Shown here in pieces: positions 3,001 through 33,142 of a DNA stretch of 36,696 nucleotides. Position numbers and translations under genes: made by a program. Source of the stretch: a virus. The notes beneath the pieces were generated by a model. The model did not search any database and was not told the DNA's origin. It saw nothing but the letters and a program-made list of their open reading frames with translations. The stretch's first letter is position 1, and every line of letters starts with the position of its first letter. Location: IMG/VR virus record IMGVR_UViG_3300025000_000261, positions 1-36,696 of that record, one strand, 5' to 3'.

Positions 3001-6000
3001 CTCTGGTTACTTTACCAGTACCTGCCAGTAACTCTAATACTCCAGAGGACTCTAAGCGTTCCTGATTGAATCGTTTCTTGAGAGCCTTGAGAAGTTCAGC
3101 TTTAGTAATGGGTCTCTTTATTCCCTTGACTACCTTACCATTACCGACAAGATTGGTAACATAGTTTCTAACCTCTGTGTTGAACCAGAATAAAGTATCT
3201 GTTGCACGAACTACATCTACTGCACCAGAATCTCCTGCTTTCATTACACCATACAGAACATCCTGCCATACCTCAGCCTCACTCTTACCACCCATGTGCT
3301 TACCAATAGTAAGGGCAAGTCTGTTGTAGGTTTCAAATATTCCCTCAGCTATGTTGGTTGGGGTATTGAAAATATTTGAAATGGCTTTTACCATTCCCTC
3401 TTTCAGGTTTCCCTTTATGCTGGCAAGTGTAACGCCAGTAGTTGTTTCATACCAGTTCTTCAAAACTTTATATAGATCTTCAGGCTTGATGTCATTCAAT
3501 GTCTTGATTGCATCATCACCCTTCAATCCTAATTCTTTCTTAGCCTTGTTCAATAGGTGTGCATAGTTGGGAAGTAACTGTCCACCCTTCTCATACATCA
3601 ATGGGAACTGGAATTTCTCTGCCAACAATACTGCAGCATCCTGATTTCTTCCCTCACGTATGGCCAGGTCAAGTCTTACATCATCTGCTACCATGGTTTC
3701 GAGTGGTCGGACTTCTGGTACTTTCAAACTGTAAGCTATGTTGATACGTTCCATCTCTCCAACAGGAGCTTGCCCCTTTATCTTGAAGTAGTCATCTACC
3801 AATCCTCTACGTGCGTCTGCCTTTGTATTGATACCCAACCGTCTCTTGAGTTGGTTTACAAATACAGTATTCTCAACCAGCTCTGGCTTCCCACTGAATG
3901 GGTTGATAGCACGGAAGGAAGTAATCATTCCATCTGTATCATAGAGCAGTTCAATACCAGACAGCTGTAATATATCTTCCATGTTCACATCTGCAGTAGC
4001 TTTTAATGTTCCGTTCTGTAGAGGAACTAATACTTCTGCGTTTTGGTATCCAATACGGTTGTCAAGTTGATTGATTACTCTTGCATAGTAATCCTCCCAT
4101 CTTGCTTTATTGTTGATCATGCCTGGGCCGGGGTAGACTTCCCTAAAGAATTTGTTTACCCTGGAGCTAATGTTGTTTGTTCTATCTAGCATACCCTTTG
4201 CTATACTCTGCAGCTTTGTAAGTTCTGCTGGGGTTAATCCACTAAAGCCTTTTACATTTTCTATCTGGGCAATTGCTTCATGTGTCTTGGATTCCCAGAG
4301 TGCTCTCTCATTCCATTTTCCAGAAACCTTATCATCAGCACTGTGAACGTTAGCATCCCAACCAGTAAGCTCTTCACTGTTAGTAAGCACCCCTTCTTTA
4401 TTCTCATCAATAGCTTTGAGTTCTTCTGGGGTTGCAGCACGTGGTTGGCTGTCAGGGTACTCATCTCTCTTTGCTCGTAACTTGGCAAGACCATCCTTCA
4501 ACCCTTCATCTGTATCTTCAAACTTGATGTCATTGTCCTGTAGATACTTCTTGATCTTACCCTTAGTCTTTCTGTCAAAAGGTTTGCTATCATCCAGATT
4601 CTTTAAGAAATCTGCAGTATCCTTATCTACACCCTTTAGTTCCTTCTCTATGGATTTAGAATAGCGAGCAGCTTTTACTTGCTCTCCATTCGATCCTATC
4701 TCTGCACCAGTTACAATGGAGTAATCCCTGTTCATCCCCTGCACAATCATATTGGATTCTGCCTGGAGTACACTCAGTGTCTCATCAAAGAATTGATCAA
4801 GGTGTTCTGGCAAGATTTCTTTAACATTACTCTTAGCTAACCTTGCCTGGAATTTCTGGAAGCGTGTAGTTACATCATAAAGGAAGGCTCTCTGTGCAGC
4901 CTCATCAAACCACTCAGCATTTCTTAAGCTCTCTGGGATATAAATATTGTATCCAGATAACTTTGGATCTACTCTATTGTGTCTCAATAAGTCATACAGT
5001 TTGGCAGCATTCCCACCTGAACTGTTAATAGAATTCAATACGTGCTTCTGGATCATGTCTGCTTCAATAGCACTTAGACCCTTAGCCTGTACTACTTCAG
5101 ACAGATGACTTATTACATCTGTAAGGAAGAGATGATTCATCTTGGCTATGTTCTTTTCATAGAAACGAATGTACATCATAGTCTTCATGCCCATCTCAAT
5201 AGAGTTGTTCAATGCCTTGATGCTGGCAGGGAAAGCTGTGAAAGTACCAAGAACTTTACCTAACAGGTTCTTACCTGTGCCATTTATCTGTACAAAACTT
5301 TTATAATAAGATAGGAAGGACAACGGGTTTTGGCTGAGCATGTTCTTGTCAATACCCATGGATGCAGCTTTGGTAAACGCCTCATCTGTCAAGCTCATCA
5401 ACCCAGAACTTTCTATCTCAGCCTTGACATTGTATTGACCCTGCTTGACGGTCTTCATTACCCCTTCGGTATCTCCATACATTTTCAACATGGCTTTCAT
5501 ATCATCCCCGAACTGACCACCATACCGAATTGAAGCCATTGTATATCTGAATGTATTGTCAACGAAGTTGAAGATAGCCCACGCTGGTCGTCTAGCTAAC
5601 GTAGCCCAGATCCATGCTTTCATAAACCGGGACTGAACCTCAGCAATACCACCCAGCAACTGTCCTGCTCTGGTAGTACCATATTTCTGTGCAATAGCAC
5701 CATAGATAGTATCTTTAGGAACTAAGTTTGATCCCAACTTCACAAGGTTTCCTCGTAAGGATGTCTGTCTGAATGCCTCACCAAATTCCTGCCCAAGTCT
5801 TGATGTTCCCCGGTAACTTGCTACCAGTCTCTCCACTGCATCAGAAATATTATTGGCTATGACTGGATCACTTATCAGCTTGCCTGGGTTCTGACTTAGT
5901 ATTTGTTTGGTTACACCCTTGACATAGAATTCATGTGTAGCTTCCCATGCCTTGGCTGCTATTCCTGCCCACTCATCTGGATCAATAGTTCTGGCTAATT

Positions 6001-9000
6001 GAATCAATGACTCCTGTGCAGAAATGGTTGGTGGTACACCCCTGAATGGAGTCTCTTTCAATAGCTTAGCTGCACCTTCAGTCAACTCATCTGTTACTGT
6101 GGTAGCTTGCTTTGCCCATGCTGCAATATTGGATACCTGTTTTACAAACTCTGATTCAGTAGCTGGCTTGGTCTGAGCAACAGACCAGAAGATATTTGTA
6201 GCTGCCTTGCCCTGCTTTGAAGCTACAGTCTGTACTGAACGATCAAGTAAAGTCTTTACTATAGTATTGTTTGAGATTGCAGTAGCAGATTTACCTATGA
6301 ATGGAACTTTCATAGCTACTCTACCCAAGCTCTTTATCAATGACTTACTCAGCCCGGCAACTATAGGGAGTGCAAGGTTGTTTACATCTAAGAATATCTC
6401 ACCCAACATTTCTAACGCTGGGTCTTGCGTAATGTAGGAGATCTGTGTTATCTCTTCCATTGAAAGAAGTCTTCCAGCCTGGAACATAGCTTCTACTACA
6501 TTCTTCCTGAACTCGTTCTTCTTTTCCTCACTCAAATTATATGTCCATGCTGCATAAGGATTGAGATTACCAGATCTGGAGTGGTATTCAATTACTCTAT
6601 CCCCTAATCGGTAAGCCTCATCCATCCATGTCTTGGCATTATTCAATACTTCCTGCTGCTCTGGGCTTCCTTCTTCATATTGACTGGCCATGGCCAGATA
6701 ATTATTGGATACCTGTAACTGCTGGAACATTGTATTCGCCATGTCAGCGGTTAGTTGTTGGTTAGTATTGTAGTAAGTATTCTCTAACCTCTTGGGGTTA
6801 GTAGCTGAATTGTATAGATACTTTGGTAACCACTCATCTACAAGATAATCATACTGCTCTGCCGTAGTCATAGTACGACCAGTCTCAATAGACTTCTTGG
6901 CTACATCCTGCAGGAATAACATGTTCGCACCCAACACAGTTGTAGTCTGGTTACGCTGCATGGATGCTTTCGTATCATTGTCTACATTGGATAAGATATT
7001 GGAAGTAACATATCCGCTGTTGATGAACTGTTCAAAAGATGAAATCTCAGGCTCTGACATTCCACGTACACCCAACATAAAGTGTATTTGCTCCTGTGGT
7101 ATTCTTCCACGATTCTGAAGATCAAGCAGATTAGGAGTGAACATGTGTTCTTTTACTGAACCAGCATATTGCTTGGCTAAATTCCAGTCTGCCCCTTCGT
7201 ACAACTTCTCATACCCGTAAGCTAATTCAGCTGTGGCTACTGGAAGATTGCCAGCCCGGTAATATTGTGCAGAATACCCAGCCTGTTCTGAGAACTTTCC
7301 AATGGTGTCTGCCTGGAGTTTATTTAAGGCTGCTTCATACTCCAATGACTTTTCCCATTGAGCTTCCAGATCAGCAATACGGGTTACCTTCTGTTGATCA
7401 GATAACTTGTCCCATCCCTTTACTGTTCCGCTTCTCCACTTCACTAACTCTTCACTGATAGACTGAGTAGTAGCTCTGGCTTCATCTATCTGGTTGGTCT
7501 TTGTTTCATTCTTGTTTATGGACTTAGCTTTGTCCATATTGTAACTTTGTCGAAGTACGCTTAGCTTATCTTCAAAGTTCTCCCAAGAATTATTTAAGTC
7601 TTCTCCAGCCTTCTCATTTCCAAATAGCCAGGTCGTTTGTCTCACTAGAGTTGTAGGTATATTATATAGAAGAGTAAAGCCTACCCCAGCTCCAGCCATA
7701 ACCGTATTCAAGGATACTGTACCCAATATTGGCTTACTCATAAACTTACTTGTTGGGGTATTCATCAACTGCTTGGTTACATTACCACCCCACATTACTT
7801 CCCACCAGGTGGCACTGAATATGTTTGCTGCCAATCCATTACTCAATGGCTCAGGAAGATTTCTAATGAACTCAGGCTTCTCTGGGAACTTTTCTAAGAA
7901 GGTTGGTGCGTTAGTAACTGGATCTAAGTTTACTGTTTGTGTTTCCTGTTGGTTGGTAGCAGATGGAAACCTAACTGTTACTCCATCCAATACGTTCTCT
8001 CTGGTAACAATAGGGGCTATCATGGATACTGCTGCAGGGTTAGACCCTACACCCCAGTCAGCGTTCTGTTCGTTGGCTATGTATACTTGCATAGCCTGTT
8101 GTAATCCAGTACCAAGAGAATCCAATGTCTCTTGATTTAGAACAACTGGACTATTCTTTTCACCCTTATAGTTTTCTTCAAACTGGGTAACTTGTTTTGT
8201 ATCCTGATCCCAATACAACGGGATCTGAGTTTGATCATTTGTTATCTCGTTTGTCAAGACATTCAAGTAAGCTGGTGTCCCGGTTGGTTGTATGTTTGAA
8301 GCAAAAGTTGGGGGCTTGGCTGTTTCATACTTGGACTCTAACCCACGCAGGAATATATCTACCTCTGGTGTATAGGTAGCATCCTGCAGCTTGGTCATAT
8401 CAATAACAAGATCTTCGTATCCTTCAGGGTAGCTTAAGTTTCCTGCCTTGTTTCTCTCAACAGGAATGTAAACTCCCATGTACTTGAATAGCTCAAGCTC
8501 TGTTGGTTTGTTGGTTACTACATTTTGTTTGTAGTCCAGATACAATTTATCCCCAGGCTTTAGTTCAGGATCGAACTTGATGCTGGCTGCCAGAGCATTC
8601 TCTTCTTCCAGCCTTGCTTGATTCCACTCTTCAAAAGTTTGACCAGCTGGCTTCTCTATCTTACCAGTAAGAACATCTTTCTTTACCTGTTGACTTTTGA
8701 AAGTCTGGTCTCTCTGCCATGCACTTATTCTTGCCTGTTCAATGCTGTCAGCAACTCGCTTATCAGCAAAGAACTGGTTGTGAAGTAACGCTTGCTTTCT
8801 ATCATCCAACCTCAAAGCAGGATCTACTGTTTGGGTAGGTATCTTTACTCCATAGGTACGCTGACCCCAATCAAATAAAGCCTTCTTGTTTGGATCTACA
8901 GGAGGCTTTTCTGTTTTCGATTTATTTACTGCTTGAGTAAATGTGGAGGCATAGTTGTTTATAGCAGACTGTTTGGCTCGTTGTTCTCGTACAGCACTGA

Positions 9001-9043
9001 GCAACTGAGCAAACTGTCCGGTTTTCCAAAAGGCATCTACCAT
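1..9043 (-). CDS. Giant phage polyvalent protein (partial, C-terminus beyond left edge)
   Basis: One uninterrupted minus-strand frame runs from an ATG at 9043, preceded by AGGATAGGAT, to the left edge, giving at least 3014 codons. It is probably a virion-carried protein delivered with the DNA; large polyvalent proteins of phages and mobile elements have this size and patchwork build. Visible pieces: hydrophobic stretches near residues 435-465 and 890-918; a zincin-like helix with EELFH at 2155-2159, where HExxH would be expected; a domain with EIQSD at 2521-2525 and a W-E-E-L-A-L-K-R-I helix from W2632, a pairing I recall from other phage polyvalent proteins; then F2865-W2868, a YFT-like segment and YLSIQNP at 2947-2953, resembling the ART-PolyVal ADP-ribosyltransferase-like module. 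It is the last visible gene of the late operon, after the portal. Domain names are from memory of motifs, not from a search. The end of the gene is not seen. Confidence 0.85.
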   Translation of the reverse strand, partial: MVDAFWKTGQFAQLLSAVREQRAKQSAINNYASTFTQAVNKSKTEKPPVDPNKKALFDWGQRTYGVKIPTQTVDPALRLDDRKQALLHNQFFADKRVADSIEQARISAWQRDQTFKSQQVKKDVLTGKIEKPAGQTFEEWNQARLEEENALAASIKFDPELKPGDKLYLDYKQNVVTNKPTELELFKYMGVYIPVERNKAGNLSYPEGYEDLVIDMTKLQDATYTPEVDIFLRGLESKYETAKPPTFASNIQPTGTPAYLNVLTNEITNDQTQIPLYWDQDTKQVTQFEENYKGEKNSPVVLNQETLDSLGTGLQQAMQVYIANEQNADWGVGSNPAAVSMIAPIVTRENVLDGVTVRFPSATNQQETQTVNLDPVTNAPTFLEKFPEKPEFIRNLPEPLSNGLAANIFSATWWEVMWGGNVTKQLMNTPTSKFMSKPILGTVSLNTVMAGAGVGFTLLYNIPTTLVRQTTWLFGNEKAGEDLNNSWENFEDKLSVLRQSYNMDKAKSINKNETKTNQIDEARATTQSISEELVKWRSGTVKGWDKLSDQQKVTRIADLEAQWEKSLEYEAALNKLQADTIGKFSEQAGYSAQYYRAGNLPVATAELAYGYEKLYEGADWNLAKQYAGSVKEHMFTPNLLDLQNRGRIPQEQIHFMLGVRGMSEPEISSFEQFINSGYVTSNILSNVDNDTKASMQRNQTTTVLGANMLFLQDVAKKSIETGRTMTTAEQYDYLVDEWLPKYLYNSATNPKRLENTYYNTNQQLTADMANTMFQQLQVSNNYLAMASQYEEGSPEQQEVLNNAKTWMDEAYRLGDRVIEYHSRSGNLNPYAAWTYNLSEEKKNEFRKNVVEAMFQAGRLLSMEEITQISYITQDPALEMLGEIFLDVNNLALPIVAGLSKSLIKSLGRVAMKVPFIGKSATAISNNTIVKTLLDRSVQTVASKQGKAATNIFWSVAQTKPATESEFVKQVSNIAAWAKQATTVTDELTEGAAKLLKETPFRGVPPTISAQESLIQLARTIDPDEWAGIAAKAWEATHEFYVKGVTKQILSQNPGKLISDPVIANNISDAVERLVASYRGTSRLGQEFGEAFRQTSLRGNLVKLGSNLVPKDTIYGAIAQKYGTTRAGQLLGGIAEVQSRFMKAWIWATLARRPAWAIFNFVDNTFRYTMASIRYGGQFGDDMKAMLKMYGDTEGVMKTVKQGQYNVKAEIESSGLMSLTDEAFTKAASMGIDKNMLSQNPLSFLSYYKSFVQINGTGKNLLGKVLGTFTAFPASIKALNNSIEMGMKTMMYIRFYEKNIAKMNHLFLTDVISHLSEVVQAKGLSAIEADMIQKHVLNSINSSGGNAAKLYDLLRHNRVDPKLSGYNIYIPESLRNAEWFDEAAQRAFLYDVTTRFQKFQARLAKSNVKEILPEHLDQFFDETLSVLQAESNMIVQGMNRDYSIVTGAEIGSNGEQVKAARYSKSIEKELKGVDKDTADFLKNLDDSKPFDRKTKGKIKKYLQDNDIKFEDTDEGLKDGLAKLRAKRDEYPDSQPRAATPEELKAIDENKEGVLTNSEELTGWDANVHSADDKVSGKWNERALWESKTHEAIAQIENVKGFSGLTPAELTKLQSIAKGMLDRTNNISSRVNKFFREVYPGPGMINNKARWEDYYARVINQLDNRIGYQNAEVLVPLQNGTLKATADVNMEDILQLSGIELLYDTDGMITSFRAINPFSGKPELVENTVFVNQLKRRLGINTKADARRGLVDDYFKIKGQAPVGEMERINIAYSLKVPEVRPLETMVADDVRLDLAIREGRNQDAAVLLAEKFQFPLMYEKGGQLLPNYAHLLNKAKKELGLKGDDAIKTLNDIKPEDLYKVLKNWYETTTGVTLASIKGNLKEGMVKAISNIFNTPTNIAEGIFETYNRLALTIGKHMGGKSEAEVWQDVLYGVMKAGDSGAVDVVRATDTLFWFNTEVRNYVTNLVGNGKVVKGIKRPITKAELLKALKKRFNQERLESSGVLELLAGTGKVTREQIIKALDENERFIVSVPRGKTKEWQINILDYNHSNRANITADLVSEELADGNIAIGLKVKSMAGDLDERSKQRLLRWAAENQYSFIEFSPSQIERFPTITVQGVFAEGTYGITSFIKGELDKQQAIIRGFTNANPTTAMEELFHAFEPFLPAEHYKVLDEWAGKIAKKQMKANPNIGLPFDNLKSEVMAKGFQKHVVTGKGVPKDIAEIFDTMRNTMLAIYRKMKDWFAGIEVTPEVEQVFNKMLDADYVAERVKNVPKPKRSQKPLYQQVGDTEGKRIVDPFYLKSADIVNRLVPEKTTAGKVGAILKNNIKKEEYEWLGLNDFLKGKDKVTKQEMLDYIKQNNVEIVEIKKGDWRGADHELQSNISKRVDVLFEHTEATGRAAGVSDVEARAAVESFVKSSDADVALEVNSIARIYPDLKNYEPLIKAREVWKRISRTAKVPTTFESLTIPGGKNYRELLLTLPELEPQFFVEQHWGDIPNVFGHIRMQEFADVDGKRVLFIEEIQSDLHQKGRKLGYGKPLTEHPQVKLEDFEIVPSMYGRYRIALPHNGSQWEIFMDTADGTPAGWINLVDDMVYDTPREAVDGLNTYFKGITLRDWNRGISGIPNAPFKDTWEELALKRITRLASEEGYDRVAWTTGKMQADRYALTNYVDEISYKKNANGNYTIYAKPKNSQTAIDNIAGQDMSNVPPERIEEFVGGDMAKRILNGEGKEGLNANFETIKVFDELDLQVGEKWPFEVYDKNIPNKAEKIIKRWNSKIEDVELSGTTPTVGGLYIMPNVDNTGWVVASDQTGVWLGTFATRKEAIEEMNRLHKVVVKGFDVTPEMQKATLFEGQSLFQKIDTPQFNTWFTWDWISNKPGDVPSWVSTKDGTPIMVKTAMADIFDEFQMDFMNTASKYGRLPYFTESAVEADSYFLRNGERGAVEDFYLSIQNPWDMDELVPWARIDEINSVLERNGYRKITFARDMYGKDAYNEFVSILDGRGLAAPKDELNKL

Positions 9044-17522: not shown

Positions 17523-18075
17523 ATCCCAACACCCTTCCCAACTTTTCCCACAAGTCCAATGCCTGTTCACGTGTAAGTTTCTTTGGCTCTACATAATCCC
17601 AATAGTAGTTAGGATCAAGGTCAACAACAATCTCACCATCTTTTTCTTCAACACTGGCTCGCCATGCAATACGCTCTCTCTCGTATTGTTCTTGTTGTAT
17701 TCTTTCCTGCTCTGCCCATCTTTTCTGTTGGGCTTTCAATTTCTTGGCCTGCTTTTTATCATAGCAGGTTTGACATAGTGGTTTGGTGTAGTCCTCTCCT
17801 CTGTACTCACCACCACACTTTGTACATTCCTTTGGGGAATCATCATAATCACAGTACTGGCATTTCCTGTTCTCGTCCAACCCGTCTGCTATCTTACACT
17901 TAGGACAGACACTTGGATACTGCTTCTGGAAACTTGACCAACTTGCATCAGATGAAGTTGCAATCATTTCATTAGTTCCAATAGGTGCAGCAATCCACAC
18001 AAAATTATATGGATCTGGATTCATTGGAACATAGTCAGGAGTAAACCTTACTTTCCCATCCCATTCTTCATTCAT
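17515..18075 (-). CDS. Double zinc-ribbon protein with coiled-coil tail
   Basis: This 186-residue protein has four CxxC pairs at C57/C60, C72/C75, C84/C87 and C101/C104, enough for two zinc ribbons, followed by a Lys/Gln/Glu-rich predicted coiled coil at about 105-140. It probably binds a nucleic acid or a host protein; no enzymatic motif is visible. The ATG at 18075 lies inside the end of the 57-residue zinc-finger gene, so the two are translationally coupled. Confidence 0.75.
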   Translation of the reverse strand: MNEEWDGKVRFTPDYVPMNPDPYNFVWIAAPIGTNEMIATSSDASWSSFQKQYPSVCPKCKIADGLDENRKCQYCDYDDSPKECTKCGGEYRGEDYTKPLCQTCYDKKQAKKLKAQQKRWAEQERIQQEQYERERIAWRASVEEKDGEIVVDLDPNYYWDYVEPKKLTREQALDLWEKLGRVLGYE

Positions 18076-18241
18076 ATTCTACTATTTCCTTTCCATCTCT
18101 TACCTCAATAACCTCCACGATCTCTCCTTGCCCTTGACATATTGGACACTCTACCATCTCTCCAAGATACCAATGCTGCCCATTCCCCCAACATGTCTGG
18201 CATGTAAATGAACTCCATATAACTTCTGGTATTGTATTCAT
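18068..18241 (-). CDS. Small CxxCxGxG zinc-finger protein
   Basis: This 57-residue protein has two DnaJ-type zinc motifs, CQTCWGNGQ (C14, C17) and CPICQGQGE (C32, C35), one zinc site in all. Free-standing proteins of this kind often act as small chaperone-like or nucleic-acid-binding factors; the role here is unknown. The ATG at 18241 overlaps the stop of the upstream gene (TAATG) and the end overlaps the downstream gene, so it lies within a tightly coupled operon. Confidence 0.72.
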   Translation of the reverse strand: MNTIPEVIWSSFTCQTCWGNGQHWYLGEMVECPICQGQGEIVEVIEVRDGKEIVEYE

Positions 18242-18465
18242 TATCTACTTCCTTCCTCTGGATCTAGCGTCCAGTCATCATAAGGGTCATACCCCTCATA
18301 ACATACTTCTGTATTCCATTCTTTCTGGGCATCAGCTTTCAATTTATATTCTCTGGTCTTGTTCTCACACTCTATACAATACACCGACCATCCCAGACCA
18401 GATAACTTATACACAGCTAGTCCACGACAATTACATTTCTTCAGACTGCCCACTGGTATTGGCAT
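18241..18465 (-). CDS. Lar-like restriction alleviation protein (tentative)
   Basis: This 74-residue protein has ATG at 18465 after GGAGAAAAG. C11, C13, C30 and C33, followed by A-x-x-E-W-N (W50, N51), match the layout of the Lar/restriction-alleviation zinc-finger family, in which a CxxC pair, a second pair and a final A-x3-W-N are typical. The first pair is CxC rather than CxxC. Lar-type proteins protect phage DNA from host type I restriction, which would fit an early accessory operon. The assignment is by motif only. Confidence 0.55.
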   Translation of the reverse strand: MPIPVGSLKKCNCRGLAVYKLSGLGWSVYCIECENKTREYKLKADAQKEWNTEVCYEGYDPYDDWTLDPEEGSR

Positions 18466-18664
18466 CTTTTCTCCTTTCCAATTCTGCCTCAACAAGAGCT
18501 TTGTCTGTCCTGCTCTTATTCAGCTGCTCAAGAACTGGAACATCTGTTCTGGGCATTGTATCTGATCCACATAATAACCAGAACTCACACATCTCAATCT
18601 CATACTCCACATCTTCTAACTCATATTCAAGTTCACTCGTTGACCACTCAGAATATTTATTCAT
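18431..18664 (-). CDS. Small acidic coiled-coil protein, first gene of the zinc-finger operon
   Basis: This 77-residue protein starts at ATG 18664 with GAAAGGAAG upstream. The N-terminal half is strongly acidic (E-L-E-Y-E-L-E-D-V-E-Y-E-I-E) and the C-terminal half is a charged helix ending A-E-L-E-R-R. It overlaps the Lar-like gene by 35 bp in another frame. The family is unknown; similar short helical proteins lead many phage early operons. Confidence 0.65.
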   Translation of the reverse strand: MNKYSEWSTSELEYELEDVEYEIEMCEFWLLCGSDTMPRTDVPVLEQLNKSRTDKALVEAELERRKDANTSGQSEEM

Positions 18665-18686: not shown

Positions 18687-18734
18687 ATAATACTCCGATT
18701 TAATGGATTAAATATTAAAACTAAATTAGAGTTT
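18687..18734 (-). promoter_or_regulatory. Leftward operon promoter with 11-bp direct-repeat box (box 2)
   Basis: The heptamers CTCTAAT (18731-18725) and TTTTAAT (18720-18714) repeat with an 11-bp period on the minus strand. A TATTAT -10 (18692-18687) follows 42 bases after the box start, and the operon ATG is at 18664. The layout matches boxes at 23249 and 24054, suggesting control by one direct-repeat-binding activator. Confidence 0.6.
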
Positions 18735-18737
18735 TTC

Positions 18738-18779
18738 TTGTATATAGATAACAAAGGTGGTAAAATTGTCTATATACAA
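18738..18779 (+). promoter_or_regulatory. Rightward promoter of the endonuclease VII-like gene, bracketed by an inverted repeat
   Basis: TTGTAT (18738-18743) and TAAAAT (18761-18766) are spaced by 17 bp, about 24 bp before the ATG. A perfect 11-bp inverted repeat, TTGTATATAGA (18738-18748) and TCTATATACAA (18769-18779), covers both the -35 and the expected start site, a typical repressor layout. Confidence 0.6.
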
Positions 18780-18789
18780 AGGAGATCCA

Positions 18790-19293
18790 ATGGAAAATCT
18801 ATTAAGATGCTCAAAATGTGGACAGTATAAAAACCCGTCTGAATTTATTAAAGACAAAAACACTACACGTGGATATGTTTACATGTGTAAACCGTGTTGG
18901 AATGAGTACTATGAAGAACCAAAACGAAAGGATAAAAGAAGGGCGTATCAAAGGGAAAGAAACAAAAAACTATACAGTAAAAACAGGGATGAGATACTAA
19001 AAAAAGCCAGAGAAAAAAACAAACAAGACCCAGAAGCACAGATGTTTAGAATGTATAAATACAAGTATGGACTAACTAGAGAAGACTACATCAAACTAAT
19101 GGAAAATCAAGGTGGTTCGTGTGCTATATGTGGGAATAAATTTTCAGAATCAATAAAGGCACACGTTGACCATTGTCATACCACTGATGTAGTTCGTGGA
19201 TTACTGTGTGGTGCGTGCAACAGAGGAATTGGATTACTAAAAGAAGACCCCAAAATTTTTCAATCTGCTGCTGATTACCTGTATTTACATTAA
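18790..19293 (+). CDS. Recombination endonuclease VII-like nuclease
   Basis: The protein has 167 residues; ATG 18790 follows AAAGGAGATCC, so an upstream GTG reading at 18757 is not preferred. An N-terminal zinc site (C7, C10, C33, C36) and a basic linker (about 44-80) precede the endonuclease VII signature: C111-x2-C114, DHCH at 127-130 and RGLLCGACNRGIG at 136-148 (C140, C143). This family contains T4 gp49-type Holliday junction resolvases and many homing nucleases. The N-terminal CxxC finger makes a free-standing homing role possible. It is divergent from the zinc-finger operon. Confidence 0.88.
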   Translation: MENLLRCSKCGQYKNPSEFIKDKNTTRGYVYMCKPCWNEYYEEPKRKDKRRAYQRERNKKLYSKNRDEILKKAREKNKQDPEAQMFRMYKYKYGLTREDYIKLMENQGGSCAICGNKFSESIKAHVDHCHTTDVVRGLLCGACNRGIGLLKEDPKIFQSAADYLYLH

Positions 19294-19340
19294 GAAAAGA
19301 TTAGAGTTTCGTGGACTTTTAGTACCAAAAAGGTTATTAT
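19287..19340 (+). promoter_or_regulatory. Phosphoesterase promoter with adjacent direct-repeat box (box 4)
   Basis: TGGACT (19312-19317) and TATTAT (19335-19340) are spaced by 17 bp. The inverted-orientation box, heptamers at 19300-19306 and 19289-19295, ends 3-6 bp before the -35. The 13 bases at 19298-19310 are identical to those at 23238-23250, the box of the OmpR-containing operon. Confidence 0.5.
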
Positions 19341-19370
19341 AAGGGGGTATGTGTTCACGATGGAGGCATT

Positions 19371-20297
19371 ATGATAATAGGTACAAGCCAGAAGGGGGCA
19401 GTTACTACCCTTGAACTAGCATTGGATGTGGGACAAACACAATACATTTGGGTCACTTCTGACGTTCATGTAGACAGTGTGTATAGCAACAGAAAACTTT
19501 TCCTCTCCGACCTTGATGAGGCAAGCAAGAGAGAAGCAGCAATAGTAATAAACGGAGATCTAGTAGATGCCATGCAGGGACGCTTTGATCCCAGGCGAGA
19601 CATGAGTATGCTCAGACCTGAGTATCGTAGGGCAGATTACTATGACTTTGTTGTCTACGACATAGCAGGACTTCTTAGTCCTTACGCCAAGTGGATGAAA
19701 CTTATCTCCCCAGGCAATCACGAGTTAGCTGTTCTGAAGAACGCAAACACATACCTATCAGACAGAATCGTGAGGGAACTAAACAAGGAAGGTGGAGATG
19801 TACAACACGGAGGATATGGAGGATGGATCAGAGCACTGATCAAAGATGGGACAGGAGCAGGGGGAAGTGCAATAAAAATCAAATACTTTCATGGAGCAGG
19901 GGGAGAAGCACCAGTAACACGGGGGGCAATACAAACAAATAGGCAGGCGGTCTACTTACCAGATGCTGATGTAGTTATAAACGGGCATTCGCATAATTCT
20001 TATCATATTCCAATAACACGAGAGAGGCTTGGTAACAAGGGAGACCAGTATTTCGACACCCAACACCATGTACGTACCCCTGGGTACATGCAATCCTATG
20101 GAGATGGCACGGTTGGATGGGAAGTAACACGGGGAGGAGTACCAAAACCGCTGGGTGGGGCATTTATAAAGATTACTGCTACATCTGGCAGACAAAGTAA
20201 GCGTCCCATTGTAGCTGTAGAGCCAATAATACACAGCCCATCCCCCTTATCCCCAACTAATGACATATTTCAGGGGACTGTGTACCCACAAGAGTAG
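19371..20297 (+). CDS. Calcineurin-like metallophosphoesterase
   Basis: This 308-residue protein starts at ATG 19371 with GGAGG upstream. The metal-binding motifs are all present: D31-V-H33, GDLVD with D63, GNHE at 115-118, H174 in FHGAG and GHSH at 205-208. Members of this fold cut phosphomono- or diesters in nucleotides, nucleic acids or proteins. Phage versions may act in DNA metabolism or against nucleotide-based host defence; the substrate cannot be told here. It has its own promoter and converges with the methyltransferase operon. Confidence 0.88.
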   Translation: MIIGTSQKGAVTTLELALDVGQTQYIWVTSDVHVDSVYSNRKLFLSDLDEASKREAAIVINGDLVDAMQGRFDPRRDMSMLRPEYRRADYYDFVVYDIAGLLSPYAKWMKLISPGNHELAVLKNANTYLSDRIVRELNKEGGDVQHGGYGGWIRALIKDGTGAGGSAIKIKYFHGAGGEAPVTRGAIQTNRQAVYLPDADVVINGHSHNSYHIPITRERLGNKGDQYFDTQHHVRTPGYMQSYGDGTVGWEVTRGGVPKPLGGAFIKITATSGRQSKRPIVAVEPIIHSPSPLSPTNDIFQGTVYPQE

Positions 20298-20299
20298 AA

Positions 20300-20317
20300 A
20301 GAGGGCGTAAGCCCTCT
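20300..20317. terminator. Hairpin between convergent phosphoesterase and methyltransferase genes
   Basis: AGAGGGC-GTAA-GCCCTCT is a 7-bp perfect stem with a four-base loop. It lies between the two stop codons and overlaps the methyltransferase stop. U-runs are short on both strands, so it is a modest bidirectional terminator. Confidence 0.5.
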
Positions 20318-21062
20318 AACTATTCAAGTAAACCATCATACTTATCAAGATTGGGGTTGAAAATGGGTCATACCACAGGGTATCTTCTATTTCCAGCCCC
20401 AATAAACCCACAAAATACTGCAATCCTGCCCATGTGAAGGCTATTGGGTGGTGTAAACGGAAGGAAAGTGAGTCTACATTGGAGTTTGGCATGTCCAACA
20501 GTACCTTTCCACCCGGTTTTAGCTTCTTCATGGCATCTTGGAGGAACTTTAGGGGGTGGTTTTGGTGTTCGAGAACGTGTGAGAGGATCAAAACGTCTAC
20601 ACTTTCGTCTTCAACTGCAGAAATGTCTGGCAAAATCCATGGAATACCACTTGTTTTGTTCTTATCTACCCCAAAAACTGTGCAATCCAGTTCGTCTTTC
20701 AGCTTTTGTATCAGAATTCCCAGTGAACAACCAACATCTAGAACAACTTTTCCATCAATATGGTGCTGTCTGAGGAATTCAAGCTGGTATTGTGCACGTA
20801 AGTTCTCGAATTCTACGTTCCTTTCCTTCATTTCCTCTGTTGGAGAAGTGATTTTCCTGTAGATTGTCTCGTAATACTCGTCCGTAAACTCATCCGTCAT
20901 ACGATTTACGAGCCAATAGTTCCCACAGATCCTGCAAAGAGCATAATATAACTCTACTCCGAGAAACTTTGTTCCATATCCACGACCATCTTCTACTCTA
21001 CCCTGTCCACACACAGGGCATTTCGGTTGTCCTTCTAATTTTATCTGAACTGTTTCGCTCAA
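20316..21062 (-). CDS. SAM-dependent methyltransferase with N-terminal zinc ribbon
   Basis: This 248-residue protein starts with a zinc ribbon (C15-x2-C18 and C43-x2-C46) and continues with a class I methyltransferase: motif I VVLDVGCSLG at 107-116, acidic D133 in VFGVDKN, LILSHVLEHQNHP at 158-170 and LKPGGKVLLDMPN at 181-193. It resembles Methyltransf_11/23 enzymes of cell-surface or small-molecule pathways more than DNA methylases: there is no NPPY or PC motif. The substrate is unknown. It is last in the seven-gene operon and is coupled by ATGA at 21059-21062 to the preceding gene. Confidence 0.85.
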   Translation of the reverse strand: MSETVQIKLEGQPKCPVCGQGRVEDGRGYGTKFLGVELYYALCRICGNYWLVNRMTDEFTDEYYETIYRKITSPTEEMKERNVEFENLRAQYQLEFLRQHHIDGKVVLDVGCSLGILIQKLKDELDCTVFGVDKNKTSGIPWILPDISAVEDESVDVLILSHVLEHQNHPLKFLQDAMKKLKPGGKVLLDMPNSNVDSLSFRLHHPIAFTWAGLQYFVGLLGLEIEDTLWYDPFSTPILISMMVYLNS

Positions 21063-21295
21063 TTCAATCTCGCTTTCTGTCTTAGTACTTCTTGATGTAT
21101 CTTAGCTGCAACATCACCATGCACTCGTAAAGAGTACTCAATAATTGTATCTGTCAGGTCTTCAGCCAGATCACTTTCATCCTGTCTGATTCTTTCAAGT
21201 ATGGCAGATACCAAATCGGTAAAAGCCTGCTGGTTTCCCAACAGCTCACCCAACAACTCAAGCAATAACCTTCTATCAATAGTAGCTAACCACAT
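21059..21295 (-). CDS. Small helical protein between regulator and methyltransferase
   Basis: This 78-residue protein starts at ATG 21295, which overlaps the TAA of the regulator gene (TAATG); a TTG 21 bases upstream is less likely. It is predicted all-helical, with L-L-L-E-L-L-G-E-L-L-G and an acidic D-E-S-D-L-A-E-D-L. The family is not recognised. The strict coupling on both sides suggests fixed stoichiometry with the regulator or the methyltransferase. Confidence 0.7.
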   Translation of the reverse strand: MWLATIDRRLLLELLGELLGNQQAFTDLVSAILERIRQDESDLAEDLTDTIIEYSLRVHGDVAAKIHQEVLRQKARLN

Positions 21296-21945
21296 TATTT
21301 GTTCTCCAGCATCCAACCATAATCTCGTATAGACTTTATCTTATCACTTCCTATCTTACTTCTCAACCTTCCTATGTAAATATCCAGCTGCTTACTGTCC
21401 ATTCCATACGTATCCCCCCATACACTGGTTGACAACAATTCTTTTGACAGAGCCTGGCCCGGATGTAGCATAAAGACTTTCAATAAGTCAAACTCTCTGG
21501 CAGTAAGAATGATAGTCCTGTCTGTATAATGCAGCTGTCCTTTCCATGAAAGGTTTAGATCTCCTACCTGTAAAGTTTTCTTATTAGCATGTCTTCGTAA
21601 TAGTGCACGGGAACGGGCCGCCAGTTCTGCAGGATGAAAAGGAAACTCGACAACATCATCAGCACCATCATTCAAACACCAGACTACTTCTTCAGTAATA
21701 GCATAACGTGGGTTTTCCATCATAACAATAACAGGAGCTGAGCTTACTTTCTTGATGTAATCAAATGCACATATCTGAAATGTTTCCCAATCTGTAACGA
21801 TCAAGTCCGGGGTAGACTTTACACACAGATCCTTTCCTGATATTAGATCATAGGCTATCTCTACATCATGTCCTTCATATAACATGGTCTTCTTTACCAA
21901 CGCTGCAAGATAAGCATTGTTACTGATAATCAATATAGTTGCCAT
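21295..21945 (-). CDS. OmpR/PhoB-type response regulator with degenerate receiver
   Basis: This 216-residue, full-length OmpR-family protein has a receiver (1-118) and a C-terminal winged helix (about 125-216) with the usual LTAREFDLLKVFMLHPG and YIGRLRSKIG segments. The phospho-acceptor D52 is kept, but the acidic pair is S8-N9, the conserved Thr/Ser is M76 and the conserved Lys is F101. Mg2+-dependent phosphorylation is therefore unlikely, and the protein is probably a phosphorylation-independent transcription factor. No histidine kinase is nearby. Its operon promoter carries 11-bp-period heptamers, which suit an OmpR-type dimer, so autoregulation is a reasonable inference. Confidence 0.93.
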   Translation of the reverse strand: MATILIISNNAYLAALVKKTMLYEGHDVEIAYDLISGKDLCVKSTPDLIVTDWETFQICAFDYIKKVSSAPVIVMMENPRYAITEEVVWCLNDGADDVVEFPFHPAELAARSRALLRRHANKKTLQVGDLNLSWKGQLHYTDRTIILTAREFDLLKVFMLHPGQALSKELLSTSVWGDTYGMDSKQLDIYIGRLRSKIGSDKIKSIRDYGWMLENK

Positions 21946-22061
21946 TACTTTCTCCCTGCTCTCATATCGTCATTCCCAGCAGCAACAAACCAAGACATAG
22001 CTACTGCTCCTACAAATGCTCCGATAACAAACCAGACGAAGCCAATCCAGAAGTGGGTCAT
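21945..22061 (-). CDS. One-helix membrane peptide
   Basis: This 38-residue protein has ATG at 22061 after AAAGGACAGATCAC. A single hydrophobic helix (about residues 4-27, W-I-G-F-V-W-F-V-I-G-A-F-V-G) with small Gly/Ala packing residues is followed by a charged tail N-D-D-M-R-A-G-R-K. It overlaps both neighbours (ATGA upstream, TAATG downstream). Similar short membrane peptides are frequent in phages. Being directly ahead of the regulator, it may be a membrane partner for it, but that is speculation. Confidence 0.68.
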   Translation of the reverse strand: MTHFWIGFVWFVIGAFVGAVAMSWFVAAGNDDMRAGRK

Positions 22062-22438
22062 TGTGATCTGTCCTTTGGGGGTTTGGGTAGTTGTCTATAA
22101 TGTGTTGGGTAAATGCGATTATCACCAGAATATGTGTACCATTTGCCTTCAAATCTATATGCCTCATGGTAGCACAAATTATTATCAACGACCCAGTAAA
22201 GATCAATCGAGCTTACTAATTTCCACTCACTCACAGGTATCCACCTTTGCTCGGCTTCCAACTCCTGCACACGTGATTGGAGACGTTGGATTTCTGATAA
22301 AGCGTTTGGGTAATATTCATACAAAATATCTAACTCTTTAGAATAGTCAACGTTAGGATTTTCAAACACACCCTCTGCACTATATTCTTCCATCAATTTT
22401 TTTTGTTCCTCAATCCATTCAGGTGTAAATTCAGTCAT
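22058..22438 (-). CDS. DUF551-like small phage protein
   Basis: This 126-residue protein has a helical N-terminus with a coiled coil (about 45-63, ending R-V-Q-E-L-E-A-E-Q) and a C-terminal domain starting WIPVSE and ending THYRQLPKPP. The W-I-x-V ... H-x-x-x-L-P-x-P-P frame is the hallmark I know from DUF551 proteins of phages and prophages; the function is unknown. ATG 22438 has AGAGGTGAAC upstream and overlaps the previous gene by 8 bp. Confidence 0.72.
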   Translation of the reverse strand: MTEFTPEWIEEQKKLMEEYSAEGVFENPNVDYSKELDILYEYYPNALSEIQRLQSRVQELEAEQRWIPVSEWKLVSSIDLYWVVDNNLCYHEAYRFEGKWYTYSGDNRIYPTHYRQLPKPPKDRSQ

Positions 22439-22847
22439 CGTTCACCTCTAGTGTTTTTAATGTTTCACTGACATTATCAAGAATTGAACCGTCAATATAT
22501 TCTGACAATTCTCCCTCTAGGTCGGCTTTCATACATGCTTCATAAAGCAGCTTCAGTTTTTCCATTAGTTCAAGTTCATCAGGTGTCATCAATGCCTTTT
22601 CTGTCAGCCATGCGTTTTCTTGTGTCAACCTCTCAATCTCAGCGTCCTTCTGTGCTATGGTAGCAGTGAGGGCATCTTCGATGGGTCTTTTATTCCAAGT
22701 AGATACTGATACGCCACTAACACAGCCATCATCTTCTTTTGGATCTTCAGCACATTTTACATGCCTATATTCTTCGGGTGCAAAAGTACCACGATAAGTC
22801 CATAGATTATGTTTTCCACAAAACGGGCAGTCTTTCAATTTTTCCAT
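22431..22847 (-). CDS. Lar-like zinc-finger protein with coiled-coil tail
   Basis: This 138-residue protein has an N-terminal zinc finger with L-K-D-C7-P-F-C10-G, C32, C42 and a closing WNKRP (W51-N52). This is the layout of the Lar restriction-alleviation family. Residues 56-85 form a likely coiled coil (T-I-A-Q-K-D-A-E-I-E-R-L). Lar proteins counter type I restriction; the extra coiled coil is common in phage variants. It is coupled by TAATG to the upstream zinc-ribbon gene. Confidence 0.7.
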   Translation of the reverse strand: MEKLKDCPFCGKHNLWTYRGTFAPEEYRHVKCAEDPKEDDGCVSGVSVSTWNKRPIEDALTATIAQKDAEIERLTQENAWLTEKALMTPDELELMEKLKLLYEACMKADLEGELSEYIDGSILDNVSETLKTLEVNDD

Positions 22848-23179
22848 TACTCCACCTCCACATACTTGACAGGCCTACCACAATTTGGACAAAATTTATA
22901 ATCTGGTACAATGATCTTTTGGATATGTTCATCACTACATCCAGTTTTTCTTGAAAAGAAAATCATATCTCCATGCTCGTCACACCCACCATATTCACCA
23001 ACATACCTGCACACATCCTCAACAACAAGCGGACACCATGAGGGGCGGGTTTCCATTTCAAGCAGAGCCGTTCTGTTTAGTGTCATGCTAACTTTATTTA
23101 TACACAATCTAAGCGGTATGTCACAATATGCACATCTTATCGGTAGATCACCATCCACTACAATCTTGATTATGTTCAT
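22847..23179 (-). CDS. Zinc-ribbon protein, first gene of the regulator operon
   Basis: This 110-residue protein starts at ATG 23179 with GAAAGGAAGG upstream. Cys pairs at C16/C19 and C97/C100 (KFCPNCGRPV) flank a central region with R-P-S-W-C-P-L. The last pair plus G-R-P-V is typical of a zinc ribbon. Phages carry many such proteins near anti-restriction genes; the role is unknown. It is first behind the boxed promoter at 23203-23249. Confidence 0.72.
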   Translation of the reverse strand: MNIIKIVVDGDLPIRCAYCDIPLRLCINKVSMTLNRTALLEMETRPSWCPLVVEDVCRYVGEYGGCDEHGDMIFFSRKTGCSDEHIQKIIVPDYKFCPNCGRPVKYVEVE

Positions 23180-23202
23180 CTTACCTTCCTTTCTATATAC
23201 AA

Positions 23203-23249
23203 ATTATACGTTTAATAATCCTGATTATATTAGAACCAGATTAGAGTTT
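23203..23249 (-). promoter_or_regulatory. Promoter of the OmpR-containing operon with 11-bp direct-repeat box (box 1)
   Basis: On the minus strand, CTCTAAT (23246-23240) and TTCTAAT (23235-23229) are separated by 4 bp, and a perfect TATAAT (23208-23203) begins 41 bases after the box start. The ATG of the first gene is at 23179. The second heptamer lies where a -35 would be. Confidence 0.65.
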
Positions 23250-23478
23250 CCCTACAATTTAATCAGCAGTACTGAACAAATTGTACACAAAACACAAACG
23301 TATTCCGTGTAGATCATCACAGAACTCAAAGGAATAATGTGGGAGTTTCACACTAAAGTGCAAGGAATGACGAGTTACTATGCACTTTGGACGGGTTTTA
23401 TTGTACAGTTTGGCAATCCGATTGCATATACTATACAAAAATGTATAGTTTGTATGGTCATCTTAATGCGTAAGAGTT
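23250..23478. other. Non-coding region upstream of the regulator operon, with palindromes
   Basis: No credible gene is seen. It holds a long-loop inverted repeat, AAAGTGCA (23355-23362) with TGCACTTT (23381-23388), and the short perfect hairpin or operator CTATACA-AAAA-TGTATAG (23431-23448). These may be regulator sites or part of an RNA leader. No further promoter could be assigned with confidence. Confidence 0.45.
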
Positions 23479-23509
23479 AATAAGAAACCCCCACCAATAC
23501 TGGCAGGGG
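23479..23509 (-). terminator. Intrinsic terminator, leftward
   Basis: Read on the minus strand, a 9-bp stem (two G-T pairs) with a GTAT loop (23509-23488) is followed by TTTCTTATT (23487-23479). This fits a rho-independent terminator for the 23619-23984 gene and the structured segment after it. Confidence 0.65.
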
Positions 23510-23610
23510 AAATTCTGATGCCTGTTGAGACAGAGCAGAGACGACCCGGCTCGGTCGGCGGTTTCTCCCATGTTCTTGTGGAGTCCTAAGCCTGCCGGGT
23601 ACTATTGATC
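23510..23610 (-). ncRNA. Structured, GC-rich transcribed segment (candidate RNA)
   Basis: This segment lies between the stop of the 121-residue gene and the terminator. It is clearly richer in G and C than its surroundings. The arms ACCCGGC (23544-23550) and GCCGGGT (23594-23600) can close a 43-base domain. A second hairpin pairs 23514-23517 with 23536-23539 and 23522-23525 with 23530-23533. It does not match tRNA features and no known RNA family was recognised. It could be a 3' UTR element or a small RNA. Confidence 0.35.
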
Positions 23611-23618
23611 TTATTATA

Positions 23619-23984
23619 TTACTTCTTTTCTCTTACTACAATAACTTCCTCATAGTACTCAATAGGGATTCCACCAAACATTTTGGAAAAGAACTCAGCG
23701 TGATCCTTGGCCTGTCCGTACGTTGAAAAGAATCCAATCCATCCTTCTGAATCTTCACTTACCAGATAGACATTACAATCATGCTTCAAATCTTGTCCGA
23801 CTTTCAGCCATAGTCTGGGGAGTTCTGCAGTACTCATCAACTTCTCCCACTCGTCTTCAGATAACTCTGCCTCATACAGTGGACAATGTGGATTAGTACA
23901 ACCAGTTCCAGGATTTCTTTTGTGTGTCCCATCATAATGATAGATACTCATTGGCTTACTTCCGCATAACTTACATTCATTCAT
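23619..23984 (-). CDS. Zinc-finger protein, Lar-like N-terminus
   Basis: This 121-residue protein has ATG at 23984 with GAAAGGAG upstream. C4, C7, C29 and C34 form a likely zinc site (MNECKLCGSKP ... GTGCTNPHC), followed by a W-x-x-L-M helix as in Lar-like proteins. The remainder (about 55-121) has beta-alpha character with Y-G-Q-A-K-D-H-A-E-F-F. It has its own promoter with the direct-repeat box at 24008-24054 and ends ahead of a structured segment and terminator. The function is unknown; an anti-restriction role is possible. Confidence 0.68.
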   Translation of the reverse strand: MNECKLCGSKPMSIYHYDGTHKRNPGTGCTNPHCPLYEAELSEDEWEKLMSTAELPRLWLKVGQDLKHDCNVYLVSEDSEGWIGFFSTYGQAKDHAEFFSKMFGGIPIEYYEEVIVVREKK

Positions 23985-24007
23985 TTACTTTTCTCCTTTC
24001 TCAATCT

Positions 24008-24054
24008 ATTGTACCAAAAAGGGTAAGCCGTACATTAAATCTATATTAGAGAAG
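24008..24054 (-). promoter_or_regulatory. Leftward promoter with 11-bp direct-repeat box (box 3)
   Basis: CTCTAAT (24051-24045) and ATTTAAT (24040-24034) are separated by 4 bp, with TACAAT (24013-24008) 41 bases after the box start, the same spacing as at 23249. The ATG of the downstream gene is at 23984. Confidence 0.58.
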
Positions 24055-24340
24055 GAAGAAGATCTATCTATATAAGTAATACCATCATCACCCGTAGTAT
24101 AAGTAAAACTTATTTGAGCACGCCTGAGCTTTTTAAATCAACAAAATTCAATAACTCTTCACGCCTGGAATATAAATAAAACTTATACTGAACCTATTCT
24201 TTCTAATAACTTTTTCAATGTGGGAAATACTTATACTAAAGATAAAGTCCGGGTAGGATAAGTATAAAAAGGCTATAGAAGATGTATCACAGGATCAACA
24301 ACCCTTTCTAATGCTTTTTTCAATCAGACAAAAAGGGGAG
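24055..24340. repeat. Iteron-like repeat cluster in the divergent region
   Basis: ATAAGT elements recur in both orientations: ATAAGT-AAA-ACTTAT at 24099-24113, a one-mismatch copy at 24172-24186, and the pair ATACTTAT (24227-24234) and ATAAGTAT (24258-24265). ACGCCTG occurs twice (near 24120 and 24161). A 20-base element at 24200-24219 recurs with two changes at 24305-24324. Such density at the switch point between leftward and rightward genes suggests an origin or a regulatory hub. Confidence 0.5.
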
Positions 24341-24792
24341 CAACAAATACAAATAATACAACCAATCTAAACAACCTACCCCACCTAATCTAATCCCAAT
24401 CGCAATCTCCCCCTCTCTCATCAGTCTTATCCTTTCATCCTACTATGCCTATATATAACTTACCCGTCGATCAAAGCCGCCCGTTACTTAGTAACACAAT
24501 CGTAACAATCCAAGCGTACAAATAAAGCCGCCCGTTGCTAAACCGAAAGCCGCCCGTTGCAAACTACTCATTAAATGAATAGTCATAGAATGAATAGACA
24601 ATCGCCCAAGTCAAAACACTTAAGGTTAGCATCATACCGCTTGATCTATTCTATCCCCTATATATCCCCTTTCTTTAATATGCAAGTATCATGCCAACCT
24701 TGTCATCCTTTTCTTATTACTTATGACACTGTTTATCTTATCTCTTATCCCTATAATAAGAGTATAGATTGAAATTATGAAAGGATAATAAC
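24341..24792. other. Non-coding leader of the early gene block, with three 15-bp repeats
   Basis: No supported gene is present. Three copies of AAAGCCGCCCGTTRC lie at 24473-24487, 24524-24538 and 24546-24560. The first continues into CTTAGTAAC, giving a palindromic GTTAC-TTA-GTAAC. A TATAAT hexamer at 24752-24757, with a poor -35, may start the rightward early transcript just before the first gene. Confidence 0.45.
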
Positions 24793-32467: not shown

Positions 32468-32693
32468 AGACTTCCTCATAGTATTGCTTGGCTAACAATA
32501 ATCTTTCCTGCCACTTGGCTGTACCCTCTCGGTGTATCTTCTCATGGCAGGAAAGACATAGCCTTACCTGATTAGAACTCTCCAGCTCACCACCCTTACT
32601 TCTCGGTACTATCTCATGGGTATTGACTGCTGGTTTCAAGCAAACATAACATCTGTCTATCAATACAGTACCCTTATCTCTACCTGTCTCCAT
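32451..32693 (-). CDS. Small HNH-type endonuclease
   Basis: This 80-residue protein has ATG at 32693 with GAGGATGTAAC upstream. C-Y-V-C, then T-H-E-I-V-P-R-S-K-G-G, S-S-N-Q-V-R-L-C-L-S-C-H-E-K-I-H gives a full HNH (McrA-like) core with two CxxC pairs holding zinc. It overlaps the end of the upstream 160-residue gene by 34 bp. Such small HNH proteins act as homing enzymes or packaging-associated nickases; this one is away from the terminase. Confidence 0.85.
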   Translation of the reverse strand: METGRDKGTVLIDRCYVCLKPAVNTHEIVPRSKGGELESSNQVRLCLSCHEKIHREGTAKWQERLLLAKQYYEEVFIPDQ

Positions 32694-33142
32694 GTTACAT
32701 CCTCTGGTATCTCATCCTCGGTTATCAATACCTTACTGTTACCCCTGCATACCCACCACATCTTACTTGCTCCCATCATGCTGGGTACATCAGCAAAACC
32801 ATACACGTGCTTGCCCTTTACGATCTCAGGTGTAACTGCGAACTCATCTATAACCTCACCCTCTAAGTTATCTACCATCCACTGACTGATCTTCGGGTAC
32901 TTCCTCATCAGGATAAGTAACGGTTGCTTCTTGACCTGTTGCTTCCTGTTCTTCTTACCTTCGGGGGTACGTGAAAGAATATAATACATGGTCGATAAGG
33001 TATAGGGCTTGCGTGTATCTGGATTGAATACCCCTCGACTGGCTAACTCCTCTGCCACTTCACGATACGAAACTTCCTTACCCCTCTCTGCTACCATCTC
33101 ATTGTATAGATCAATAACTATCTTTCTATCCATTGGATTCAT
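32660..33142 (-). CDS. Unknown protein with possible helix-turn-helix start
   Basis: This 160-residue protein has a first part (about 5-65) that looks like a helical DNA-binding domain: V-S-Y-R-E-V-A-E-E-L-A-S-R-G-V ... T-L-S-T-M-Y-Y-I-L-S is a helix-turn-helix-like arrangement, followed by a basic K-K-N-R-K-Q-Q-V-K-K. The second half (about 75-160) is of unknown fold. One operator-like palindrome lies inside the gene. It overlaps both neighbours (17 and 34 bp). It could be a regulator or a recombination-type DNA-binding protein. Confidence 0.62.
   Translation of the reverse strand: MNPMDRKIVIDLYNEMVAERGKEVSYREVAEELASRGVFNPDTRKPYTLSTMYYILSRTPEGKKNRKQQVKKQPLLILMRKYPKISQWMVDNLEGEVIDEFAVTPEIVKGKHVYGFADVPSMMGASKMWWVCRGNSKVLITEDEIPEDVTWRQVEIRVLY
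32915..32929. promoter_or_regulatory. Operator-like palindrome, site 6 (inside a gene)
   Basis: AAGTAAC-G-GTTGCTT has one mismatch to the consensus and is the exact reverse complement of the site over the late promoter at 17187-17201. It lies inside the 160-residue gene. Confidence 0.5.

Follow-up and report, generated by a model that had tools for sequence, protein, structure and literature searches.

We analysed a 36,696-base environmental virus record (IMG/VR record IMGVR_UViG_3300025000_000261; hereafter the window, which means this whole stretch of DNA), in which an 18-bp box, YTCTAATNNNNYTYTAAT (YTCTAAT-N4-YTYTAAT), stands ahead of leftward transcription units, one of which encodes a protein of the OmpR type. 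Judged from sequence, it is very likely that phages and bacteria share this box as a true operator of the activator type. In the reading that we favour, with a confidence somewhat better than even, the phages exploit an operator of the bacterial OmpR family, and the window phage has also captured a regulator which keeps its DNA-binding domain and has lost most of its phosphorylation residues.

With one mismatch allowed, the motif is found four times in the window, always on the minus strand:

18714..18731, minus strand: box 1, CTCTAAT-TTAG-TTTTAAT; -10 TATTAT at 18687-18692, offset 39, centre about -42.5; before the leftward unit starting at 18664
23229..23246, minus strand: box 2, CTCTAAT-CTGG-TTCTAAT; -10 TATAAT at 23203-23208, offset 38, centre -41.5; before the operon from 23179 to 20316
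24034..24051, minus strand: box 3, CTCTAAT-ATAG-ATTTAAT, one mismatch; -10 TACAAT at 24008-24013, offset 38, centre -41.5; before the gene at 23619-23984
19289..19306, minus strand: box 4, CTCTAAT-CTTT-TCTTAAT, one mismatch; no -10 at 38-39 (CAGATT there)

Shuffled versions of the window held a mean of 0.46 matches, and none of 100 shuffles reached four. A second record, G001 (IMGVR_UViG_3300025154_000106, 59,121 bases), is the same phage, with 100% and 99.9% identity across window positions 11298-32050, the extent of the stretch compared. It carries exactly the same four boxes and no others, while the reversed control pattern gives 0 matches, and the scan of the whole genome thus refutes a random density of the motif. 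An earlier note on this DNA had placed boxes with the -10 hexamers TATTAT, TATAAT and TACAAT ahead of the leftward genes starting at 18664, 23179 and 23984, which is confirmed; the distance from box start to -10, given there as 41-42 bases, is corrected to 38 or 39. The 13-base identity reported between the region of 19289 and 23238-23250 is also present. The fourth box proposed there is a match to the motif, but the lack of a -10 at the expected offset places it outside the class. Its neighbour is a promoter-like pair pointing rightward (TGGACT at 19312 and TATTAT at 19335, spanning 19312-19340), to which the box is oriented in reverse; such pairs are no commoner in the region than in shuffles. 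The box also shares bases with the stop codon that ends the endonuclease VII gene. Because it lacks the -10, is reversed and overlaps a stop codon, box 4 is a different kind of site, perhaps a relic or duplicate outside the promoter class, and the phosphoesterase gene loses the place in the regulon that this box had given it.

We then compared repeat periods in a pool of four phage species, consisting of the window, G002 (60,125 bases; terminase 77% identical to that of the window phage), G006 (66,311 bases; capsid 72% identical) and 60.0 of the 61.8 kb of G017 (61,809 bases; capsid 58% and terminase 51% identical). A near-match was defined as two YTYTAAT heptamers agreeing at 13 or more of 14 positions, and periods from 7 to 32 were compared. 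There were 15 near-matches at the 11-bp period and 0-7 at each of the 25 other periods; perfect heptamer pairs numbered six at period 11 and one summed over all other periods. The tandem sites of the OmpR/PhoB family have a repeat period of about 11 bp, and the phage boxes, being direct repeats with an 11-bp period, have the form of an operator of this type. A TANNNT hexamer occurs at offset 38 or 39 from the box start in 10 of the 15 near-matches (window 3/4, G002 4/5, G006 2/2, G017 1/4). If the transcription start is assumed to lie 12 bases past the first base of the -10, the three window promoters have boxes centred at -41.5, -41.5 and -42.5, and their -35 positions agree with TTGACA at no more than 2 of 6 bases, which is the layout of a class II activator site (centre near -41.5, -35 weak or missing). 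In its 11-bp repeat, its position and its lack of a -35, the box thus fits an OmpR-family activator site, as had been proposed. Pho boxes, which stand ahead of phosphate genes, consist of CTGTCAT-type heptamers. With YTCTAAT as its heptamer, the phage box is not of that kind, and among the bacterial array loci that were read there were no phosphate-uptake genes downstream of the boxes. Its heptamer would likewise set the phage box apart from the known sites of PhoB, PmrA, KdpE and RstA.

The boxes recur in the relatives. Both G001 and G002 look nearly complete because their gene order wraps round both contig ends; the records of G002, G006 and G017 come without completeness values. In G002, a box at 54148 (minus strand) precedes a unit that matches the box 1 unit (18241-18495 to g2_52955, 41%; 18068-18241 to g2_52773, 35%), and a homologue of the box 2 methyltransferase (38%, E 4e-55) lies leftward of a box at 56820. 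In G006 and G017, whose GC contents are 49% and 52%, a box stands ahead of orthologous helicase genes; the window helicase gene has no such box upstream. A search of G002, G006 and G017 with PF00486 gave zero matches, as did the phage regulator used as a query against G002. The regulon is therefore not self-contained, as it had been called, because relatives that hold boxes with the same spacing, and in which these searches found no OmpR-type gene, manage without a regulator gene of their own. Two further records with the box, G018 and G019, were excluded from the group, as they gave at most one weak hit to the window phage in a comparison covering 15.0 of 39.0 kb and 20.0 of 62.7 kb. Another candidate for the box reader, a helix-turn-helix-like protein at 32660-33142, was rejected: it is conserved, with weak Pfam hits only, and has homologues in G002 and G006 and none in 60.0/61.8 kb of G017.

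The regulator of the window phage is the following gene, which lies within the operon under box 2, as had been claimed, the operon being drawn from gene spacing:

21295..21945, minus strand: 216-aa OmpR-type protein; Trans_reg_C 65.3 bits, Response_reg 21.8 bits

The Pfam cut-off for Trans_reg_C is 26.2 bits, so the protein has a winged helix of the OmpR type; the Response_reg score is under its cut-off of 30.2. An AlphaFold2 model shows two domains and is confident (mean predicted local distance difference test, pLDDT, 89.8; predicted template modelling score, pTM, 0.68). Model residues 1-121 match receiver domains (Z 20.8, root-mean-square deviation, rmsd, 1.3, 118 aligned) and have the receiver fold; most rows of the structure comparison cover residues 1-124 only. 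Whole-chain matches include KdpE-DNA (4kfc, rmsd 17.4) and CosR-DNA (8uvk, rmsd 7.0), with large deviations because the domain arrangement differs. Across the 31 viral-locus proteins aligned with it, D9, D52 and K101 hardly vary; the window protein itself has N9, D52 and F101. The acidic pair is replaced by S8/N9, the lysine has become F101, and the switch position, M76 or E77 depending on the alignment, has no Thr or Ser; only D52 is retained. The protein is thus an atypical family member without the canonical set of phosphorylation residues, a loss that the earlier note had left unremarked. Atypical regulators such as CosR bind DNA without the usual phosphorylation. Like CosR, the window protein combines a receiver with an OmpR-type winged helix and has an incomplete phosphorylation pocket, and CosR-DNA structures are among the matches to its model; unlike CosR, it is encoded by a phage and its regulation is putative.

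Searches with phmmer against solved structures placed MtrA, a Deinococcus regulator and BasR nearest, with no clear orthologue. The protein is matched by phrog_731, a PHROG of unknown function, and by 77 records of the phage collection, all at less than 60% identity. We also examined viral OmpR-type loci, the best 80 of 107, one of which is the window phage itself. The other 79 gave one perfect two-heptamer match, which has no TANNNT at 38-39, and the 32 receivers shown for these viral loci appear largely intact.

The same box occurs in bacteria. A genome scan with an imposed -10 returned 52 stretches, two of them in a single Armatimonadota genome, G020. Nine of these hits (eight from Legionella and one from a Proteobacteria metagenome-assembled genome) are one conserved stretch, within a reading frame in 8/9, and were dismissed as coincidental; among the 43 that remain, 28 overlap with a reading frame at least 60 aa long. 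Because the pattern fixes the spacing, none of these hits was used as evidence of spacing, and the bacterial evidence comes from box-only searches with no spacing imposed. In G020 the box pattern has 22 exact matches and the reversed pattern has 0. These boxes group into 14 arrays, as a rule with three heptamers each; a TANNNT lies at offset 39 in 14/14, and prepilin-type genes lie downstream of 11 of the 14 (read by eye; one Pfam-checked, DUF1559 with N_methyl). At the G020 loci L230-L242 an inverted ATTAGA half-site often precedes the arrays.

Among 150 Anaerolineae genomes, 34 had a match (43 matches against 18 for the control), and we read 40 loci covering 41 of the 43 matches. Chaperone-type or stress-protease genes are downstream in 18/40 of these loci, namely Hsp20 (7), DnaK (6), J-domain (2), and GrpE, FtsH or HtpG (L394, L395, L398, L399, L401, L403, L404, L409, L411, L413, L414, L418, L423-L425 and L427-L429); gene names were read by eye, with one of each of the six chaperone or protease families checked by Pfam. 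From these neighbours, a heat-shock element is a possible identity for the Anaerolineae arrays. In the second of two sets of Anaerolineae loci, TANNNT occurs at offset 28 in 11 of 20 (the first set was scanned from 30 upward). This offset is 10 bases past the last heptamer, and in the three-heptamer arrays the -10 likewise lies 10 bases past the last heptamer. A further locus, L205 in Leyella stercorea, has two diverging YTCTAAT arrays between MgtC-like and ATPase-like genes, named by eye. Literature searches found no description of this box or array regulon, with one query too broad to be informative.

Eleven bacterial genomes were searched with the phage protein as query. In four Armatimonadota genomes, G020, G033, G083 and G155, a single matched regulator is found no more than 3 kb from an exact box, and it is the top match of its genome, among 11, 11, 7 and 8 matches, respectively. 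With four independent genomes, a top rank every time would arise by chance about once in 6800; with two related pairs, about once in 80. The proposed tie between OmpR-type proteins and the box is therefore supported in these genomes, by place and by rank. In G083 and G155 the top match is located under an array, the order in G083 being array, PepSY protein, regulator and kinase-like open frame; in G020 and G033 it is followed by a kinase gene (Pfam-checked in G033) and then the box. A perfect array within 1.3 kb upstream was found at 2/30 of the regulator loci scanned, those of G083 and G155 only. In the Anaerolineae genomes G211 and G245, an OmpR-type gene, one of them Pfam-checked, ends about 40-65 bases ahead of the box.

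Taken together, these observations are consistent with the following mechanism. The 18-bp box would be the operator of a bacterial response regulator of the OmpR/PhoB family. Its two heptamers, placed head-to-tail with their centre at -41.5 or -42.5, would substitute for the missing -35, and a regulator dimer at the box would recruit RNA polymerase to the -10. For the relatives, the factor that reads the box would have to be a host protein or something else. The window phage would have captured a regulator gene of the same kind, which now lies in a boxed operon; as its phosphorylation residues are mostly lost, the regulator probably acts without a kinase and feeds back on its own operon. The 21295-21945 protein is a good candidate for binding the box, and we infer binding, activation, capture, phosphorylation independence and feedback from sequence. 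A stronger version, which we hold only tentatively, is that the phages of this lineage depend on a stress-type operator of bacteria and that one member stole the regulator and stripped it of its switch, which would turn a signal-dependent host regulon into an always-on, self-amplifying phage programme. What survives of the earlier interpretation is the OmpR-type layout, the winged-helix regulator in a boxed operon and the nearness of its closest counterparts to boxes in four Armatimonadota genomes, and not the self-contained regulon with the phosphoesterase as a member.

Several observations weigh against this reading. Among the phages, G017 has a single full promoter and G006 only two, and of 13 further related records, mostly fragments of 4-34 kb (two are distant, one being 78.6 kb), 12 have no box with one mismatch allowed and G006 alone has two. 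A pattern-based scan of the genome collection gave zero relatives of the capsid protein. The phage sites correspond to the first two positions of an array, and the proximal third heptamer of the G020 arrays is missing from them. On the side of the regulators, identity between the phage protein and the G083 regulator is as low as 34%; identity in the DNA-binding domain does not single out the box-linked regulators (0.27 for the box-linked one in G020 and 0.34 for another); the best match overall, a regulator in G021 (Anaerolineae), has no box in the 1.3 kb upstream; and in G048, with 12 exact boxes, 0/14 matched regulators share a contig with one. Exact boxes show no real excess over the reversed control in G083 (2 vs 1) and G155 (3 vs 2), which are distinguished by three-heptamer arrays with a -10 rather than by counts. 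Across 151 Armatimonadota genomes, 12 have a match and the 52 matches stand against 30 for the control; this excess is concentrated, and the regulon is therefore confined to few genomes. In Anaerolineae, TANNNT occurs at 38-39 in 6/20 and 2/20 loci of the two sets, and the -10 is mostly elsewhere.

Other explanations have to be weighed against the same evidence. The earlier note had the phage OmpR-type protein as a dedicated and sufficient activator and the box as a private phage site. This fits a regulator gene that sits in a boxed operon and whose nearest kin adjoin the same box in four genomes, but three relatives are boxed without the regulator gene and the same box occurs in bacteria, and we consider the proposal unlikely. 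The absence of the gene from those relatives, together with the degenerate receiver, would suit a host regulator that alone reads the boxes, with the phage protein opposing it or acting elsewhere, for instance as an inactive competitor. This, too, appears improbable to us, as the winged helix scores far above the cut-off in a confidently modelled protein, and an inhibitor inside its own regulon, though possible, is less simple.

Because the Anaerolineae arrays often precede chaperone genes, with a chaperone or stress-protease gene downstream in 18/40 loci, the box reader could conceivably lie outside the OmpR family and be an unrelated heat-shock regulator whose sites are tandem heptamers with an 11-bp period. 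However, OmpR-type regulator genes adjoin boxes in six genomes, and the layout is typical of OmpR-type proteins (head-to-tail half-sites are described in PMC4117788), so that we rate this alternative as quite unlikely. Finally, the window phage has a GC content of 40%, the motif is AT-rich and a loose scan of the viral collection gave at least 119 stretches, all of which would agree with a chance AT-rich similarity ahead of ordinary promoters. That explanation is contradicted by the shuffles, the period control, the spacing, the relatives at 49% and 52% GC and the bacterial arrays, and is very improbable.

Several known systems resemble this one in part. Cyanophage genes come under the control of host PhoB through Pho boxes, with binding demonstrated by gel shift (PMC10976474). 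The likeness lies in phage promoters that bear the site of a host regulator of the OmpR/PhoB family; the differences are that the motif is another one, that the window phage has its own degenerate regulator, and that the gel-shift binding belongs to the cyanophage system. The use of a host response regulator by a phage is thus already known in principle (PMC10976474), and further cases may exist. PhoB, PmrA, KdpE and RstA are described as having two half-sites per regulator dimer, arranged head-to-tail for PhoB and PmrA, and the phage box resembles their sites in having two half-sites (PMC4117788). Activators of the SARP type such as AfsR also recognise direct repeats that lie close to the -10 and are spaced by one helical turn (11 bp), as in the phage boxes, whereas the afs box is centred at -29.5 and the phage boxes at -41.5 or -42.5, the class II position named in the same source (PMC10936776). 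If the favoured reading is true, the box would be a second such operator, common to several species of a phage group known only from metagenomes, and the phage-borne regulator would be one freed from its kinase. In some Anaerolineae and Armatimonadota, the box further seems to be the signature of a regulon with tandem heptamers at an 11-bp period, and it could point to the hosts of uncultured phages; as a clue to the host, no transfer RNAs were found in the 15 stretches examined.

The other genes under and around the boxes are as follows:

18431..18664, minus strand: 77-aa protein, first gene under box 1; no Pfam match
18757..19293, plus strand: endonuclease VII family nuclease between boxes 1 and 4; no homologue among G002 open reading frames
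19371..20297, plus strand: calcineurin-like phosphoesterase, downstream of the rightward promoter-like pair
20316..23179, minus strand: leftward operon under box 2, inferred from gene spacing
22847-23179, 22431-22847, 22058-22438, 21295-21945 (regulator), 21059-21316 and 20316-21062 (methyltransferase), minus strand: genes of the box 2 operon
23619..23984, minus strand: 121-aa protein under box 3; no Pfam match

The genes of the box 2 operon touch or overlap, except for a gap of about 110 bases ahead of the regulator. In the window two boxes flank the endonuclease VII gene, where G002 shows just one box separating divergent units; the arrangement looks like the insertion of a mobile nuclease at 18757-19293. 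Farther along the window, the divergent intergenic region at 24091-24330 has repeats of the TATAAGTAAAACTTAT and CTTTCTAATNNCTTTTTCAAT kinds, the alignment to G001 is interrupted at 24229-24304, and an 18-mer of the AAAGCCGCCCGTTGC type occurs in three copies at 24473-24563. At the other end, a giant protein of more than 3000 residues at 2-9043 is truncated by the window edge, and its G002 counterpart (34169-46924) has 4251 aa.

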